From Limosilactobacillus sp. (lineage in GTDB: Bacteria; Bacillota; Bacilli; Lactobacillales; Lactobacillaceae), in the NCBI RefSeq assembly GCF_022482365.1, contig NZ_JAKVPE010000001.1, forward strand, positions 496,001-560,000: a stretch of 64,000 nt of DNA, read 5' to 3'. The notes beneath the pieces are model-generated. The model ran no database searches. It was not told where the DNA came from and saw only the letters and a program-made list of their open reading frames with translations. A program made the position numbers and the translations under genes. Below, piece by piece: positions 51,207 to 60,310 of the stretch (position 1 is its first letter; each line of letters begins with the position of its first letter).

Positions 51207-52053
51207 TCATTTCAAATCCATAATTCGCAAGCAAGCCTGCCACTGAGCGGCAAAATTCGGTCGCTCCCACTCGTCGATCCGTTTGTTGCGCACACCGACC
51301 GCCTGGTTGAAATTAGGTAACTCCACCCCGCCTCAACGCCGGGTGCTGACCATGGAGATGACCATAGAAAACGTAACGGACCGCTGAATCCTGTTCGAGC
51401 AGCTCGCCGAGTCGATCACTGCCCATCATCGCGTTAATCATCTGGTAAAACCGCTCCCGGCGCGGGGTCGTCACCGCCGCCGGCTTGGGGGCGAGCAACT
51501 CGTGCCGCGGTGCAAAGTGGGTCAGGAAAAGGACCCGCTTGTGATCCCGCCGCGCGCGTAAAAGCTGGTCGTGAACCTGGTGGAGCACCATTGCCATTTG
51601 CTCCTGGTCATCCCCGGGCAGCTCAATGGCCGAATCCAGCCAGTAAACCTTCTTCCACTGGGCCACCTCCTTGGGCCGGTCGCGGTAGGTCGAAAAGCTA
51701 TAGTCGTACCAACCGTTGTTCCCGATCATCCGCCAGTCGGTTCTGGCCAGGTCAACAAAACGGTTGTGGAGGTAGGAATGATCCGCCAGCGTTTCGACCA
51801 GCCTGTAGGGAGCGTGTTGCAAGAGGTCGTGATTGCCGGCAATGTAATAGACGCTGACCCGGCCCGCCAGCCGGTCGCGCATTTTTTCCATGTAGTGGCG
51901 TGTGCGGGCAAAGTCGTTAAAGAGGTCACCGCCATAAAAGTAGTACTGGACCCCCTGCTTTTCTAAGTAACGGGCCTGCATCTCCAGCGCCCAGATTGGA
52001 TCGATCCGGTTAACGTCCAGGTGGTTGTCGCTGCTCACCGCAATGCGTACCAT
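51207..52053 (-). pseudogene. Metallophosphoesterase, frameshifted near the C-terminus
   Basis: Frame 1 encodes 246 residues with metal motifs SSDNHLD, YGGDLFND, AGNHDLLQH, LTHFAPRH and GHLHGQHP, then stops at 51313. In the next frame the reading continues as NFNQAVGVRNKRIDEWERPN and on to ...CLRIMDLK with stop TGA at 51207-51209, a plausible conserved C-terminus. Removing one G from the GGGG run at about 51321-51325 joins both into 281 residues. All visible metal ligands lie before the shift, so a truncated but active enzyme, a sequencing error or a true frameshift mutation are all possible. Confidence 0.8.
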
Positions 52054-52117
52054 GATTATTTTCCTCCCTTTTTTATCTAAAAAGCGCCACCTCTAACGGC
52101 GACGCTTTTGCTTATAT

Positions 52118-54628
52118 TTAGTAATGCTTGGTTAAAAACTGCATCCGGGCACCGATGATCTTGTTGAAGGCCGGCACCCCGTTGGCGACGTGCAGCGCCT
52201 TGAACGGGAAGGTCGCCCGGTAGGTTACCACTCCCGGATCGACGGCCTGCTTAAGGGAATCCATGACCGCCCCAGCCGCCATGTTGCCGGTCAGCAGCTG
52301 CGTATAAACTCCCGGCAGGCTGATTTGCAGGACCTTCGACAGGAAGGCAACCTCCGGCAGGGGCAGGGGTTGGATCCCCAGCTGGTGATATTCGTCATCC
52401 GTTGCAACAAAGATCACCTGGTAAAGGCCAGGGTGATCCTGCTTCATCACCGTGTCGCTGGCCTCATCGCTGACCTTCTGGAAGAGGTAGTTGGGAACCT
52501 CGGCCGGGTAACGCAGTGCCGTTGACTGGTAATTAAGCTGCTCAGGTGACAAAAGATTGGTCATCGTCCCCAGCGGGTAGGCGTAATCGCCGTCGTAGAC
52601 GTAGTTAAAGGCCACCATCTTCGTCGCCCGGCCGTCCATCCGCGGCAGGCGATCGTCAGGAAGCACAATCAACCGACAGCCCAGGTCGATCTTTGCCAGG
52701 TCCGCTAGCAGCTGATCATAGGACGCCGGGACAAACAGCAGCTGGGGCTGTTCGACCTTTAAGAGCTGGACGATGTTTTCCAGGGTCGGCGGCTCAATGT
52801 AGCGCTTGTCGCTTAAGTCGTGACAAAGACTGATCGAACTTGGATTGGTGTTAACGATGACGGTGTGATAGCCCTCGCGCCGCAGTTCCTGCATCATCTG
52901 GGCCACGAAATAGTCACCGGCGTTGCTCAAGCCCAGGCGCAGGCCACCAGTCCCGACGATCAGGGCACTTGGCTGAGCCGTCTTGGTCCCCTCGTTTTCG
53001 TCCTCGAAGGCCGAATAGAAGATGTTGGTGTGTTGGTCGAACTCTCCGGCCGAGGGTTCCACCTCCTTGTACTTGGTGGTCAGGCCATGGTCGACCAGCA
53101 TTTGATAAATGCGGTGCGGCGTCGTCTTCCACAGGCGGGCAATCAGGAGGTTGCTCAGCCCGTAGCCCTTGGCCTTGAGCAGGACCGGTTCCTTGTTCGG
53201 ATTTTCGGCGATCTCCCTAATCAGCAAACGCATCTGGTTGATCTGAACAAAGTAATACGGGTCGATCTTGGTCATCTCGGACAGTTCCTCAACGGAATAG
53301 CCGCGGTCCATCGCCTCAATCAGGACAAACAGGCGCCCGGCCTCGGGGTGGACTAGCTTAACGATCAACTCATCATCGGTCAGCTTCTTTTGGGCGGCCA
53401 GGTGAAAGTCGGTTGGCTCCTGGTAGCGGGATTCGATGGCCTTAAAGAGGGCCTCAATCGTGCTCCGACCAATCCCGAAGACGGTCCCAATCGACTTTTT
53501 TTCCGTCCCCAGGACCCGGCTGGCACTTGGAATTGCGCTGAAGCCCCAGACCGGCACCCGGGCGGCAATGTGGTCCATCGCCGGTTCAATCAGGGCCGCG
53601 TGGGGGGCGTAGTTTGGCCCCAGGTCGATGTCACGCAGCAGTTTGCCGGCGTACAGCTGGGCCGAAACGTCCGCAATCGGGTAACCGGTCGACTGGGCAA
53701 CGAAGGAAACGATCCGGTCAAAGTAGGGGCTGTTCTTGATCACGTAAAACTTGCCACTCTCGGGATCGAGGGCAAATTGGACGTGGTTGATCCCCACAAT
53801 CCGCAGCTTGCGGGTGATCGCAAAGGCCGTGTCCCGCATATCCTGAATTTGCCGATCAAGCAGGGTCTGCGGCGGGTTAAAGGCGATCGAATCACCGGCG
53901 TGAATCCCGATCGGGTCCATGTCCTCGACCATCGACAGCATCATCATCGTCCCGGACGAATCCCGCTGGACAACCGCCTCGATTTCCTTAAACCCGGCCA
54001 GGCTCTGCTGAACCAGGACTTGCTCCGCGCGGGACTGGCTCAGACAGCTCTGGACGGCCGGGGCCAGTTCACGCTCATCGTGGACAATCCGCCGGGTACT
54101 GCTGCTTTTTGGCAGGACCGACCGGATAATCACCGGGTAACCCAGCTTGCGGGCTTCAGTCAGGGCGTCCGGGTAATTGCTGACGGTCACCACGGACTTC
54201 ATCGGCGCATCCATCTTGTGGAGGGTCCGACTAAGCAGGACCGGGTTGTTGATCTGGCGAATGGTGGCTTCCGGAATACCGAGGAGCTTCAGATCGCATT
54301 CCTGGAGAATCCCCTTTTCCAATAGTTCCTGGGTCAGTTCAAAGGCCCGGCGATTTCCCAGAGTCGGTAAGATGGCGTGCGGGTGGTAGTGCTTGATCAG
54401 GTCGACGAGGGTCTCGACATTGAGGGGGCCGATGCAGGCGTGGTCAATCACCGACCGATTGTCAAGACTAAAGGAAAACGGATTGTCATCGGCCAGAATC
54501 GTCCGAATGCCAAGGCGCTTAAAGGTTAGTGCCATCTGGTAGGTGGCCGCGTCGAGTTCGTCACCATGCTGGACGTCGTTGGCCCCGGGACCAATGATTA
54601 AAACTGACTTGATTGCTGAATTAGCCAT
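52118..54628 (-). CDS. Divergent CarB-like protein (carbamoyl-phosphate synthase large-chain paralogue, degenerate)
   Basis: 836 residues against about 1060 for CarB. The domain order is still recognisable: pre-ATP-grasp (1-120), ATP-grasp 1 (120-400, GIHAGDSIAFNPPQTL near 240), helical oligomerisation region (410-540), second pre-ATP-grasp (VGTGGLRLGLSNAGDYF, then NTNPSSIS) and a contracted second ATP-grasp; the C-terminal regulatory domain is missing. The glycine-rich loop after YPVIIR (usually GGTGGG) is KSSSTR at 174-179, and the EVNPR metal motif is KNSPY at 298-302. ATP use is therefore doubtful. ATG overlaps the CarA-like stop (TGATG). Confidence 0.85.
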   Translation of the reverse strand: MANSAIKSVLIIGPGANDVQHGDELDAATYQMALTFKRLGIRTILADDNPFSFSLDNRSVIDHACIGPLNVETLVDLIKHYHPHAILPTLGNRRAFELTQELLEKGILQECDLKLLGIPEATIRQINNPVLLSRTLHKMDAPMKSVVTVSNYPDALTEARKLGYPVIIRSVLPKSSSTRRIVHDERELAPAVQSCLSQSRAEQVLVQQSLAGFKEIEAVVQRDSSGTMMMLSMVEDMDPIGIHAGDSIAFNPPQTLLDRQIQDMRDTAFAITRKLRIVGINHVQFALDPESGKFYVIKNSPYFDRIVSFVAQSTGYPIADVSAQLYAGKLLRDIDLGPNYAPHAALIEPAMDHIAARVPVWGFSAIPSASRVLGTEKKSIGTVFGIGRSTIEALFKAIESRYQEPTDFHLAAQKKLTDDELIVKLVHPEAGRLFVLIEAMDRGYSVEELSEMTKIDPYYFVQINQMRLLIREIAENPNKEPVLLKAKGYGLSNLLIARLWKTTPHRIYQMLVDHGLTTKYKEVEPSAGEFDQHTNIFYSAFEDENEGTKTAQPSALIVGTGGLRLGLSNAGDYFVAQMMQELRREGYHTVIVNTNPSSISLCHDLSDKRYIEPPTLENIVQLLKVEQPQLLFVPASYDQLLADLAKIDLGCRLIVLPDDRLPRMDGRATKMVAFNYVYDGDYAYPLGTMTNLLSPEQLNYQSTALRYPAEVPNYLFQKVSDEASDTVMKQDHPGLYQVIFVATDDEYHQLGIQPLPLPEVAFLSKVLQISLPGVYTQLLTGNMAAGAVMDSLKQAVDPGVVTYRATFPFKALHVANGVPAFNKIIGARMQFLTKHY

Positions 54629-55710
54629 CAGTGCCGGGCCTCCTTTCGTCTAATCATATCCAAGAATTCATCAAAGAGGCCATCCGTCTCGTCCGGACCC
54701 GGCGCCCCGTCCGGGAAGAACTGAACGGAGAAGGCCGGGTACTGGCGGTGACGCAGACCCTGAATGGTGTTATCGATCATGTCGATGTAGGTGATGAAGA
54801 GCTTGCTGCGGTCGACCGTCTGCGGATCGATCGCGTAGCCCCCACCCTGGTTGGCGTAAACAATGTGGTCGGTGATGACCTCCTTGAGCGGGTGGTTCAT
54901 CCCGTGATGCTCGACAGCATACCGTGTCACCTTAGCACCGTTGGCGATCCCAAAAAGCTCGTGACCCAGGCCAATCGCAAACAACGGCACCTTGGTCTGG
55001 ACGGTCCGGATCATCTCCAGAACCGATTTCTTAATGCTGTTGGGATTGCCGGGGCCGCTCGACAGGACCACCCCGTCCGGGTCCAGGCGAAGAATCTCGT
55101 CGGCCGTCGCGTTGTACGGCAAGACCGTGACGTTGCACTTCCGCCGACTCAGTTCCCGCAGGATTCCATTTTTGAGGCCGAAATCGACCACGACGATGCT
55201 GAGGCCGATCCCCGGGTTCGGGTAGGGCTTGGGCGTGGCCACCTGGGCAACCTGCTGATTGGTCAGAACGGTGGCGTGCAGCTGGTCAAAGGCGTGGTCG
55301 TCCGGAACCGGAACGATGCTGCCTTTGAGTGGCTTGTCGGCGTTGCGAAGCTTATGGATGACCGCCCGGGTGTCGATGTTGGTGATCCCCGGAATGTTCA
55401 TCTGCTTGAGGTACTGGTCGAGGGTCAGCCGCCGCACGTTGTTAGTCGCCACATTGGAAAGCGAACGCACCACCACGCCCTTAATCGTCGGCACAATTGT
55501 CTCATAGTTGTTGCGCTGAATGCCGTAGCTGCCGATGTTGGGTTGGGCAAACACCAGGATCTGATTGTCATAGATCTGGTTGGTGATGATTTCCTGATAG
55601 CCGGTCATGCTGGTGTTGAAGACCACCTCACCAAAGGTCACCGCGGGCGCACCAAAGCCCTCCCCGGCAAAGACCGTGCCATCTTCAAATATTAGGTATC
55701 GTGCTGTCAA
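54628..55710 (-). CDS. Divergent CarA-like protein (carbamoyl-phosphate synthase small-chain paralogue, no glutaminase triad)
   Basis: 360 residues, full CarA length. The N-terminal domain is well kept (LIFEDGTVFAGEGFGA, VVFNTSMTGYQE) and the class-I amidotransferase fold is present, but the catalytic Cys of GxCLGHQ is Gly247 (AIGLGHE), and His-x-Glu of QYHPEA is Phe332 and Asp334 (QFFPDG). It cannot hydrolyse glutamine by the known mechanism. Start is TTG 55710 after AGGGGTGAG. Translationally coupled to the CarB-like gene. It follows lspA-rluD, the place of the pyr operon in relatives, without pyrR, pyrB or pyrC. Confidence 0.88.
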   Translation of the reverse strand: MTARYLIFEDGTVFAGEGFGAPAVTFGEVVFNTSMTGYQEIITNQIYDNQILVFAQPNIGSYGIQRNNYETIVPTIKGVVVRSLSNVATNNVRRLTLDQYLKQMNIPGITNIDTRAVIHKLRNADKPLKGSIVPVPDDHAFDQLHATVLTNQQVAQVATPKPYPNPGIGLSIVVVDFGLKNGILRELSRRKCNVTVLPYNATADEILRLDPDGVVLSSGPGNPNSIKKSVLEMIRTVQTKVPLFAIGLGHELFGIANGAKVTRYAVEHHGMNHPLKEVITDHIVYANQGGGYAIDPQTVDRSKLFITYIDMIDNTIQGLRHRQYPAFSVQFFPDGAPGPDETDGLFDEFLDMIRRKEARH

Positions 55711-55742
55711 TTTTCACTCACCCCTACGTAATACTCACTTCT

Positions 55743-55775: not shown

Positions 55776-56687
55776 TTACTGATCGATTTTGTCTAATTTG
55801 TCGAGCATTTGCTGAAAATAAGCCGGCAAGGGCGCCGTAAAGGTCAGCTGCTTGCCCGTTCGCGGGTGCTTGAAGCCCAGCAGGCGGGCATGGAGATACT
55901 GCCCCTTGCCCGGGAGAGTCTTGCGGGGCCCGTAGAGCGGATCGCCGGCCAATGGATGACCGATGTACTTCATGTGCACCCGGATCTGGTGGGTCCGCCC
56001 GGTCTCCAGGCGACAGGACACTAGGGTATAGTGACGGTAACGCTTGAGTACCTTGAAGTGGGTCACCGCATGGCGGCCGTCAGCGACCACCGCCTGCTTC
56101 TTCCGATCCTTGGGTGAACGACCCAGCGGCGCATCAATTGTGCCGGCGTCCTCCTTGATCACCCCGTGAACCAGGGCCACGTATTCCCGCTCGTTGGTCT
56201 TGGCCTTGAGCTGGGCCGCCAGTGACCGGTGAGCCATGTCGTTTTTGGCCACCATCAATAGGCCCGAGGTGTCCTTGTCGATCCGGTGAACGATGCCCGG
56301 CCGAAACTCCCCGTTGATCGTTGAGAGCGGTGAGTGATAAAGGAGCGCGTTGACCAGGGTGTGGTCGGGATGTCCCGGCGCCGGGTGAACCACCATCCCC
56401 TGGGGCTTGTTGACCACGATCACGTCGTCGTCCTCATAAACGATGTCCAGGGGAATGTTTTCGGGTTCCAAGTCAATCTTTTGTGGCTGTTCCGGTTCAA
56501 TCGTCACCCGGTCACCGACAACCAGCTTGTACTTGGGCTTGACCTGCTCGCCATTGACCTTCACGTGCCCGTCCTCAATCCAGCGCTGCAGCTGGGAGCG
56601 TGAGAATTGGCTGAGGTGGTGGGCAAGCTGCTTGTCGATCCGCCCCGTCATCGTTGCGTCAACCGTTAATTCTAATGGTTCTTCCAA
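55776..56687 (-). CDS. rluD: RluD-type pseudouridine synthase
   Basis: 303 residues. N-terminal S4 domain (RSQLQRWIEDGHVKVNGEQV), then the RluA-family catalytic motif HRIDKDTSGLLMVAKN with the nucleophilic Asp near residue 138, and GRTHQIRVHM. Modifies 23S rRNA uridines. It starts 1 bp after the lspA stop; lspA-rluD pairing is conserved in Firmicutes. Confidence 0.94.
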   Translation of the reverse strand: MEEPLELTVDATMTGRIDKQLAHHLSQFSRSQLQRWIEDGHVKVNGEQVKPKYKLVVGDRVTIEPEQPQKIDLEPENIPLDIVYEDDDVIVVNKPQGMVVHPAPGHPDHTLVNALLYHSPLSTINGEFRPGIVHRIDKDTSGLLMVAKNDMAHRSLAAQLKAKTNEREYVALVHGVIKEDAGTIDAPLGRSPKDRKKQAVVADGRHAVTHFKVLKRYRHYTLVSCRLETGRTHQIRVHMKYIGHPLAGDPLYGPRKTLPGKGQYLHARLLGFKHPRTGKQLTFTAPLPAYFQQMLDKLDKIDQ

Positions 56688-56688
56688 A

Positions 56689-57135
56689 CTAATCGTCCTC
56701 TCGCAAAATTGCTATAATCAAGATGATTACCCCGATCGTCAGGCAGCTGTCCGCGACATTGAAGACCGGGAAGCTGACAAAGAGAGTCTCAAACATGTCA
56801 ACCACGTAGCCGTGAGCGAGGCGGTCGATGAAGTTTCCCAGGGTCCCAGCGAGAATCAGGGCCAGGCCGATCATCAATGCCCGTTGGTGCCGCCAGCGAA
56901 CCATCAAGTAGCCGATGATTGCCAGGGCTACAACAGTGATCAGCACGAAGAAGCCCTGCTGGCCGGACAGCATGCTCCAGGCGGCTCCGGTATTGTGAAG
57001 GTTGGTCAGGGTCAAAACGCCGGGAAGCACGGTCTTGCTGGCCCCGAGGCTAATCGTTGTAACCACCCAGTGCTTAACCAGCTGGTCAACGACCACTAAA
57101 GCGACTGCCAGTAGAAGGCTAATTACAATACTCAC
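56689..57135 (-). CDS. lspA: Lipoprotein signal peptidase
   Basis: 148 residues, four transmembrane helices. The aspartyl protease pair lies in GTLGNFIDRLAHG and FNVADSCLTIG; DQLVKHWV and NTGAAWSML are also family motifs. Cleaves signal peptides of prolipoproteins after diacylglyceryl transfer. The start touches the end of the EbsA-like gene. Confidence 0.95.
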   Translation of the reverse strand: MSIVISLLLAVALVVVDQLVKHWVVTTISLGASKTVLPGVLTLTNLHNTGAAWSMLSGQQGFFVLITVVALAIIGYLMVRWRHQRALMIGLALILAGTLGNFIDRLAHGYVVDMFETLFVSFPVFNVADSCLTIGVIILIIAILREDD

Positions 57136-59031: not shown

Positions 59032-60310
59032 GGTAGATTATAGAATGAAGTTAGCCACCCAGTTGGTGGTAAATAAAAAACGCCATTCGGCGTGACATCA
59101 GGTATCATATTAAGTGAACCAAACCTATATGAAAGGATGTCCGTCAAATGACGCACTTAAATGATACCATGTCTACTATTTTATTGACTACTCATAAAAA
59201 GAATGCTCATCTTACTAAAGAAGAACGTGTGATGATTGCGACTTTAAAGTCGCAAGGACTTTCCAATCGCGCAATTGGTCGCCAATTAGGAGTTAATCAT
59301 CAAACAATTAATAACGAGCTCAACCGTGGTACGGTCCGCCAACTTCGTCGTCAAAAATCTAATGGTAAGATTTACGAATATTCTTACTACATCTATAGTT
59401 ATGAAGCTGGTCAGGCCACATATCTTGAACATCACCGCCATTCTGGTCGTCGTCGCTTATATTATTCTTCAAAGCAATTTTTACGATTAGCTGATCAGCT
59501 AATGCTTGGTGAGTTTGACGACCACCATTACTCCCCACAAGCGGTTATTTATAAGGCTCGAGATTTAATGAATGATGGCACCCTGATCCCAAAGTCGGTT
59601 GTAACTTTATATCAATGGATTAATGAGGGTGTGCTTCGTACGTCCAATTTAGACCTCTTTGAAAAACCTAAACGTAAGCATCATCAAACTCATCCGCAAG
59701 CTAAAAGGTGCTTAGGGCCTAATATTGCTCAACGACCTCAAACTGCGGACCAACGGTCCGAAATTGGCCATTGGGAACTGGATACAGTTCAGGGACAGAA
59801 AAACGGTAATGACAGTGTTGTACTAGTAATGACTGATCGCCTTTCACGAGTTAATATCACGAGTAAAATTGCTGGTAAAACTGCGCATGCAGTAAATCAG
59901 TTCTTTATAAATTTGCGCCAGAAAATGGGCACAGATGCTTACTATCGCATTTTTAAGACAATAACCTCTGACAACGGTTCAGAATTTAGTGAGTTAACAC
60001 AAGTTCACGATCATGTTTTCTATGCTGATCCGTATTCCCCTTGGGAACGTGGATCCAATGAGATCAATAACCGGTTTCTCCGCAAGGAGATTACCAAAGG
60101 TGAAGCTATAAATAACTATAGTAGTGCTCAGATCATAGCGACTAATGATTGGATGAATCACTATCCACGAGCTATGTTTAATGGACATTCGTCAATGGAT
60201 ATCTATCGTAAGGCCTTCTACCAAGAGATATCACAGCTCCATCAACCAATAATCAATTGGTCAGTATTATTTATTTGAGTCCAGTGGCTAACTTATTCTT
60301 GAAATTTAGG
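59032..60310 (+). mobile_element. IS30-family insertion sequence, copy 2
   Basis: 1279 bp, the same length and transposase as copy 1 at 23481-24759 but in the other orientation. Flanked by the 13-bp direct repeat ATTATATATAAGT at 59019-59031 and 60311-60323. Begins GGTAGATTATAG and ends GAAATTTAGG. Interrupts an AT-rich gene. Confidence 0.92.
59148..60278 (+). CDS. IS30-family transposase, copy 2
   Basis: 376 residues, identical to the product of 23513-24643, with the same HTH and intact DDE residues (LDTVQG, TSDNGSEF, NNRFLRKE). GAAAGGATG precedes the ATG. Identity of the copies indicates recent transposition. Confidence 0.95.
   Translation: MTHLNDTMSTILLTTHKKNAHLTKEERVMIATLKSQGLSNRAIGRQLGVNHQTINNELNRGTVRQLRRQKSNGKIYEYSYYIYSYEAGQATYLEHHRHSGRRRLYYSSKQFLRLADQLMLGEFDDHHYSPQAVIYKARDLMNDGTLIPKSVVTLYQWINEGVLRTSNLDLFEKPKRKHHQTHPQAKRCLGPNIAQRPQTADQRSEIGHWELDTVQGQKNGNDSVVLVMTDRLSRVNITSKIAGKTAHAVNQFFINLRQKMGTDAYYRIFKTITSDNGSEFSELTQVHDHVFYADPYSPWERGSNEINNRFLRKEITKGEAINNYSSAQIIATNDWMNHYPRAMFNGHSSMDIYRKAFYQEISQLHQPIINWSVLFI

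Follow-up and report, generated by a model that had tools for sequence, protein, structure and literature searches.

A carbamoyl-phosphate synthase-like gene pair with lost catalytic sites is conserved in Limosilactobacillus and in most sampled genera of the Lactobacillaceae

The window analyzed here is a stretch of 64,000 nucleotides from Limosilactobacillus sp. (NCBI RefSeq assembly GCF_022482365.1, contig NZ_JAKVPE010000001.1, positions 496,001 to 560,000 of the forward strand), in which two adjoining genes, carA' and carB', encode proteins resembling the glutaminase (CarA) and synthetase (CarB) subunits of carbamoyl-phosphate synthase (CPS) (Table 1). The original prediction, made from the letters of the window, described both reading frames as open and coupled and both active sites as destroyed. 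The frames of CarA' (360 amino acids) and CarB' (836 amino acids) are indeed open and overlap by one base, in TGATG. Upon realignment, the catalytic Cys, His and Glu, the first ATP loop and the metal ligands were found to be gone, and an intact site was restored in neither subunit. In CarA', the catalytic residues are changed from Cys269 to Gly247, from His353 to Phe332 and from Glu355 to Asp334, and Gln273 is changed to Glu251. In the first ATP site of CarB', KSSSTR is found instead of the glycine-rich loop and KNSPY instead of EVNPR, which contains the metal ligands. The second synthetase domain of CarB' is shortened, as the protein aligns to residues 2-926 only of E. coli CarB with a net of about 90 residues fewer, and the allosteric domain is absent, with no MGS-like match in Pfam. 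Hereafter, subunits that have lost these catalytic residues are called dead and those that retain them live.

CarA' matches PF00988 and PF00117, and its AlphaFold2 (AF2) model, with a predicted local distance difference test score (pLDDT) of 77.1 and a predicted template modeling score (pTM) of 0.58, matches E. coli CarA with a Foldseek query score (TMq) of 0.87; in the AF2 predictions, both subunits have the folds of E. coli CarA and CarB. The NCBIfam cut-offs of TIGR01368 and NF009475 are passed by CarA', those of TIGR01369 and NF003671 are failed by CarB', and no other family profile was found to beat CPS for either subunit in the profile searches. Compared with glutamine-dependent CPS (E. 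coli 1JDB/1A9X; pyrimidine-type PyrAA-PyrAB), the pair is alike in predicted subunit folds, whereas it lacks the catalytic Cys/His/Glu, the glycine-rich loop, the metal ligands, the allosteric domain and part of the second synthetase domain. Ammonia-dependent CPS of the CPS1 type has a Ser at the position of the catalytic Cys and live synthetase domains. CPS1 and the pair thus share a CarA-like domain in which the catalytic Cys is missing, but the first ATP site is destroyed in the CarB' of the window, which does not have the live synthetase of that type. In E. coli CPS, according to passages of PMC6245113, CarA contacts CarB at two of its domains, the carboxyphosphate domain and the oligomerisation domain. 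The Pfam domains for both of these regions are retained in CarB', and for this reason CarA' and CarB' would be expected to bind each other still.

The ratio of nonsynonymous to synonymous substitution rates (dN/dS) was computed for 21 locus pairs, out of which only those with a synonymous rate (dS) below 2 were counted, the others being saturated, undefined or not at hand. The ratios were 0.012-0.086 for CarA' (11 pairs) and 0.023-0.117 for CarB' (8 pairs), far from the value near 1 named in the original prediction as a sign of plain decay, and controls from the same loci gave 0.017-0.060 for rluD (3 pairs) and 0.030-0.035 for fbpA (2 pairs). In seven of the eight pairs in which dS was below 2 for both genes CarA' had the lower ratio, the eighth being L044/L045 (0.066 for CarA' vs 0.065 for CarB'). 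When 55 dead rows of CarA were compared with 43 live ones, 44 residues were found to be near-invariant in both sets, 5 were switched and fixed in the dead rows (Cys to Gly and Gln to Glu among them) and 12 were lost; the corresponding comparison for CarB (55 dead and 39 live rows) shows the loss of 212 near-invariant CPS residues. In both comparisons the sets differ in breadth, the dead rows being from Lactobacillaceae alone and the live rows also from other families. The mean identity among dead pairs was 0.61-0.62 for CarA' and 0.42-0.43 and 0.24 for the regions of CarB', the last value being that of the C-terminal 200 residues. Such differences in identity and dN/dS would fit an arrangement in which the function rests with CarA' alone, perhaps as a regulator that binds a ligand, with CarB' as a tolerated or chaperone-like partner. 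We regard this as unlikely, given that CarB' is itself under purifying selection and that no carA' without carB' was seen at any locus of the neighborhood comparison described below.

CarB' was matched in all 50 Limosilactobacillus genomes and its length is intact in 48 of them, the exceptions being a fragment at a contig end (G015) and a copy broken by stops (G009). In the family as a whole, a search with CarB' matched 332 of 350 Lactobacillaceae genomes, a count that mixes dead and live CarB. Genera were therefore scored by reading the active sites of fetched representative loci, with genus labels taken from the family search and a scripted recount. In 33 of the 40 sampled genera (at least one locus each), a CarA was found that has Gly in the place of the catalytic Cys, and the dead pair is present in L. 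reuteri and L. plantarum among others. One genus, g33 (L183), retains the Cys and has Leu for the His, and six genera (g11, g12, g25, g29, g30 and g31) show only CarA with Cys and His. Among the best 120 homologues of L. plantarum CarA', 117 were readable by pattern and every one of these has the Gly. The short CarB beside a Gly-type CarA lacks both the glycine-rich loop and E-x-N-P-R in 82 of 82 rows. The two genes also stay close together, as no more than 60 bases, and mostly no more than 20, separate the carB' start codon from the stop of carA' in the 80 short-CarB loci listed (L154 among them is live).

Slow decay, in which these genes would be pseudogenes-to-be that have merely not yet gained stops, could account for the 212 residues lost from CarB' and for the stops in G009, but it is hard to reconcile with dN/dS far below 1, the intact length in nearly all genomes of the genus, the Gly-type CarA in 33 genera and the retained gene junctions, and we consider it very improbable. 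Simple decay was rejected on the low dN/dS and the 48 intact lengths, and a strain- or species-specific oddity on the 50/50 genomes, 33/40 genera and 117/117 homologues. The proposal that the pair is repurposed rather than decaying is thus well supported by selection and breadth, and neither the strain-specific occurrence nor the frequent stops in relatives that were to speak for decay were borne out. Pseudoenzymes are known as a kind, and of their features the loss of catalytic residues, purifying selection and wide conservation are found in this pair.

The Gly-Leu-Gly-His-Glu (GLGHE) sequence of the CarA' pocket is fixed in most of the family, occurring in 76 of 90 CarA rows without Cys and in 113 of the 117 readable L. 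plantarum homologues, and the conservation of CarA' among dead rows is similar to that of live CarA among live rows, although the dead set comprises Lactobacillaceae only and the live set other families too. Both observations would suit a new enzyme that kept the architecture and gained other chemistry, for instance through this pocket. As the known nucleophile of CarA is gone, as the first ATP site has neither its glycine-rich loop nor its metal ligands in any of the 82 short CarB' rows, and as no family profile matches better than CPS, such a gain of activity appears improbable to us.

The position of the pair points to its source. As the original prediction stated of relatives, the pyr operon follows lspA-rluD: a live operon of the order lspA-rluD-pyrR-pyrP-pyrB-pyrC-carA-carB-(pyrD)-pyrF-pyrE occupies the same place in the Lactobacillaceae genera g11, g25, g30 and g31, and of the 15 live loci fetched from other Lactobacillales families, 9 have pyrR and a live operon after rluD, the remaining 6 having different neighbors or being cut short. 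The gene order at dead loci is lspA-rluD-(pyrR)-(pyrP)-carA'-carB'. Across the 72 loci of the neighborhood comparison, in which some genomes are counted twice, rluD (cluster 1) was found at 71, lspA (cluster 3) at 63 and fbpA at 49; in genomes with two copies, the live CPS genes are located away from the dead pair. Because the dead loci match the live operon in position and order, the dead pair is, as far as gene order can tell, a stripped remnant of an ancestral pyr operon. Intermediates were also observed, with a dead CarA, a full-length CarB and pyrP retained in L160, L161, L162, L168 and L170, and with the Cys kept in L183. The full-length CarB of L170 (G069, g21) retains both motifs of the first ATP site beside a Gly-type CarA, and those of L168 and L160 retain the glycine-rich loop; genera of this type may represent an earlier stage or may still possess an ammonia-using CPS. 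In two quick CarA trees with long branches the dead Lactobacillaceae rows fall on one side, with 34% support for the split in the second tree, so that a single origin within the family is likely though not firm. The dead rows are not adjacent to their positional orthologues in these trees, which may be due to fast evolution.

A check for a second, intact carAB in the genome of the window (one contig, 2.335 Mb) was successful, as a full-length CarA and CarB with CLGHQ and EVNPR intact were found at C1:453,265-457,498, and a pyrB-type gene lies elsewhere, at 1,633,010. Altogether, 30 of the 50 Limosilactobacillus genomes have a full-length live CarB and one (G009) has it in pieces. In G009 (L071) stops break both CarB' and live CarB, which may reflect either decay or assembly error. 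Nineteen of the 50 genomes have no full-length CarB and the pair is present in them nonetheless (in G015 as a fragment at a contig end only); among the 41 near-complete genomes (completeness of 90% or more, contamination of 5% or less) this applies to 13. The coexistence of dead and live subunits in 30 genomes, together with the retained subunit-contact domains, could suggest a regulatory decoy, in which the formation of mixed complexes by CarA' or CarB' with live CarB or CarA would adjust or block the synthesis of carbamoyl phosphate. We judge the decoy unlikely because the pair also occurs in genomes without a live CarB; in addition, the four genomes considered next show a single CarA match, at a threshold of 1e-80, and it is the dead one.

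These four genomes, which are those of genus g49 (family f2 of the Lactobacillales) with a CarA match, carry another dead pair (L202, L246, L247 and L248). It resembles the pair of the window in the change of Cys to Gly (GLGHQ), the loss of the His and of the first ATP site, and its setting in a pyr operon. It differs from the Lactobacillaceae pair in its longer CarB (1004-1067 codons) and in that the operon is largely kept, with pyrR, pyrC, pyrD, pyrF and pyrE present. A single clade of these and the Lactobacillaceae dead rows was rejected (approximately unbiased (AU) test, p 0.0098), which indicates that a dead CPS pair arose a second time, independently, in f2/g49. The dN/dS values were 0.057-0.073 for carA', 0.085-0.227 for carB' and 0.051-0.157 for pyrC, pyrD, pyrF and pyrE. 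At two of the four loci (L246 and L247) pyrB was not found, in an operon that is otherwise present beside the dead pair.

Outside Limosilactobacillus, 32 loci from 23 genera have pyrR upstream of carA' at a distance of at most 55 bp, and in five further Lactobacillaceae loci (L157, L160, L162, L168 and L170) a permease-like gene lies between the two. Locus L102 is that of L. plantarum by its CarA' (P0243, 100% identical), and two genes of its genome (G296) score as PyrR above the cut-off. One of them belongs to the pyr operon, and the other, which precedes carA' by 25 bp, should by elimination be that of PyrR2. According to a study in J Bacteriol from 2006, loss of pyrR2 reportedly makes L. 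plantarum require arginine and pyrimidines at low CO2, and the gene names pyrAa1/pyrAb1 said to be used there imply a second pair. Unlike this PyrR2 operon, in which carA'carB' follow the second pyrR, the Limosilactobacillus pair has no linked pyrR. In Lactiplantibacillus plantarum PyrR2 is lp_1782 (PMC7911632) and is linked to inorganic carbon; the passages on PyrR2 that were examined say nothing of the two downstream genes. In three Limosilactobacillus loci (L054, L055 and L056), a divergent PyrR gene was observed 17-21 bp before a live carA, and roughly another 4 kb on follows the dead pair.

We think it rather probable that the pair is a remnant of the CPS of the ancestral pyr operon, kept as a non-catalytic, regulatory or scaffolding CPS-like complex in pyrimidine and carbamoyl-phosphate control. 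The other biosynthetic genes would have been stripped from the operon, leaving those for CPS, both subunits would have lost their known catalytic residues while being retained as a heterodimer, and this complex would serve such control, in many genera jointly with the PyrR whose gene lies immediately upstream. A small ligand might be bound without turnover. The best lead is bicarbonate, given its use by CPS (as stated in passages of PMC6245113) and the connection of PyrR2, the partner in the operon, with inorganic carbon. At the level of sequence and predicted structure, the loss of active sites, the strong purifying selection, the fixed gene place, the overlap and the CPS-like folds argue for this explanation, as do the pyrR genes found upstream in many genera and the setting of the independent dead pair of f2/g49 in a pyr operon. 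Of the roles first proposed (a scaffold, a sensor of uridine monophosphate (UMP), arginine or ornithine, or a partner of another enzyme), repurposing as such is supported, while the usual effector domain of CPS is unlikely to serve for the sensing of UMP or ornithine here, since CarB' is without that domain. A more specific version, that the dead CPS is an inorganic-carbon sensor which keeps a bicarbonate-handling fold but no turnover and signals its state to PyrR, is speculation to which we give a small chance; its partner would be PyrR2 where the two share an operon and another protein in Limosilactobacillus. If it were true, pyrimidine and arginine synthesis would follow CO2 supply, and the Lactobacillales would have made a sensor twice from one enzyme.

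Several observations weigh against the regulatory or scaffolding explanation and against a general link to PyrR. As originally noted, pyrR is missing upstream of the pair in the window, and none lies beside it in the 15 Limosilactobacillus genomes examined. All 15 carry a PyrR1-like gene that is unlinked to the pair, and where a further PyrR exists, in G003 and G028, it adjoins live pyr genes and not the dead pair. The g3 loci L094 and L095, as well as L161, L163 and L166, likewise have no pyrR beside the pair. Scans for the PyrR-binding RNA site (RF00515) at the high cut-off of the family found none in the window and none in 15 loci of the dead pair, 4 of which were rescanned at a lax threshold, and the sole site detected belongs to a live pyr operon (L164). 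Because six of the 40 sampled genera show only Cys/His CarA, the function of the pair is dispensable in some genera, and the pair of L170 may still be an ammonia-using CPS. The weaker conservation of CarB', poor in the C-terminal 200 residues, allows that only CarA' matters. Finally, no mutant, binding or expression results on the pair were found in the open-licence literature.

The signals around the pair are listed in Table 1. The ribosome-binding-like AAAGGAGG of carB' is strong, and the terminator-like stem-loop is weak, as the region has 6 such sites against a mean of 4.5 in shuffles. The promoter claimed in the original prediction did not hold up, being no better than chance (1 site against a mean of 1.8 in shuffles). 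On the same strand, carB' is followed by a gene at 51313-52053 of the window that we take to be metallophosphoesterase-like; a gene of one cluster (41), perhaps the same gene, likewise follows carB' in L005, L007 and L008. An open frame at 59148-60278 (+), presumably for an IS30-type transposase-like protein, lies close to lspA/rnhA. In several genera (L096, L098, L103 and L106), tetrahydrofolate riboswitches were observed at a distance of a few kilobases from the dead pair.

Table 1. Positions of the gene pair, its signals and its upstream neighbors in the window.
Feature	Position	Strand	Basis
carA' (CarA', glutaminase-subunit-like, 360 aa, TTG start)	54628..55710	-	open frame
carB' (CarB', synthetase-subunit-like, 836 aa)	52118..54628	-	open frame
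Shine-Dalgarno-like AAAGGAGG for carB', within carA', 10 bases ahead of ATG	54639..54646	-	read from sequence; carA'/carB' junctions of relatives
Shine-Dalgarno-like AGGGG ahead of carA' TTG	55721..55725	-	read from sequence
Terminator-like stem-loop directly 3' of carB' stop	52085..52101	-	terminator scan, weak
rluD-like gene, upstream neighbor	55776..56687	-	open frame; gene cluster 1
lspA-like gene, upstream neighbor	56689..57135	-	open frame; gene cluster 3

The genes themselves are present in databases, many of them under CPS names; where source names are shown, the proteins are named as the small or large subunit of carbamoyl phosphate synthase or as ATP-grasp or ATP-binding proteins. 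The CarA' relatives P0243-P0362 are called CPS small subunit in most sources that show a name, and a dead CarA' (P0002) scores 347 bits against the cut-off of 307 of the curated NCBIfam CPS small subunit. This naming of dead CarA' relatives is a systematic misannotation, by which pathway reconstructions can wrongly call genomes CPS-positive; in 19 of the 50 Limosilactobacillus genomes, no full-length CarB was found besides the dead one. No paper recognizably on this pair, or on any CPS pseudoenzyme pair that is conserved throughout a bacterial family, was found in the open-licence literature, a scope outside which the main journals of the PyrR2 work fall. The pair appears to be an old pseudoenzyme of two subunits, derived from an enzyme of central metabolism and present in most Lactobacillaceae genera sampled, and it is a testable candidate for a part in the sensing of inorganic carbon by PyrR2. 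Its two apparent origins would constitute a repeated natural experiment on the roles that CPS may have besides catalysis.

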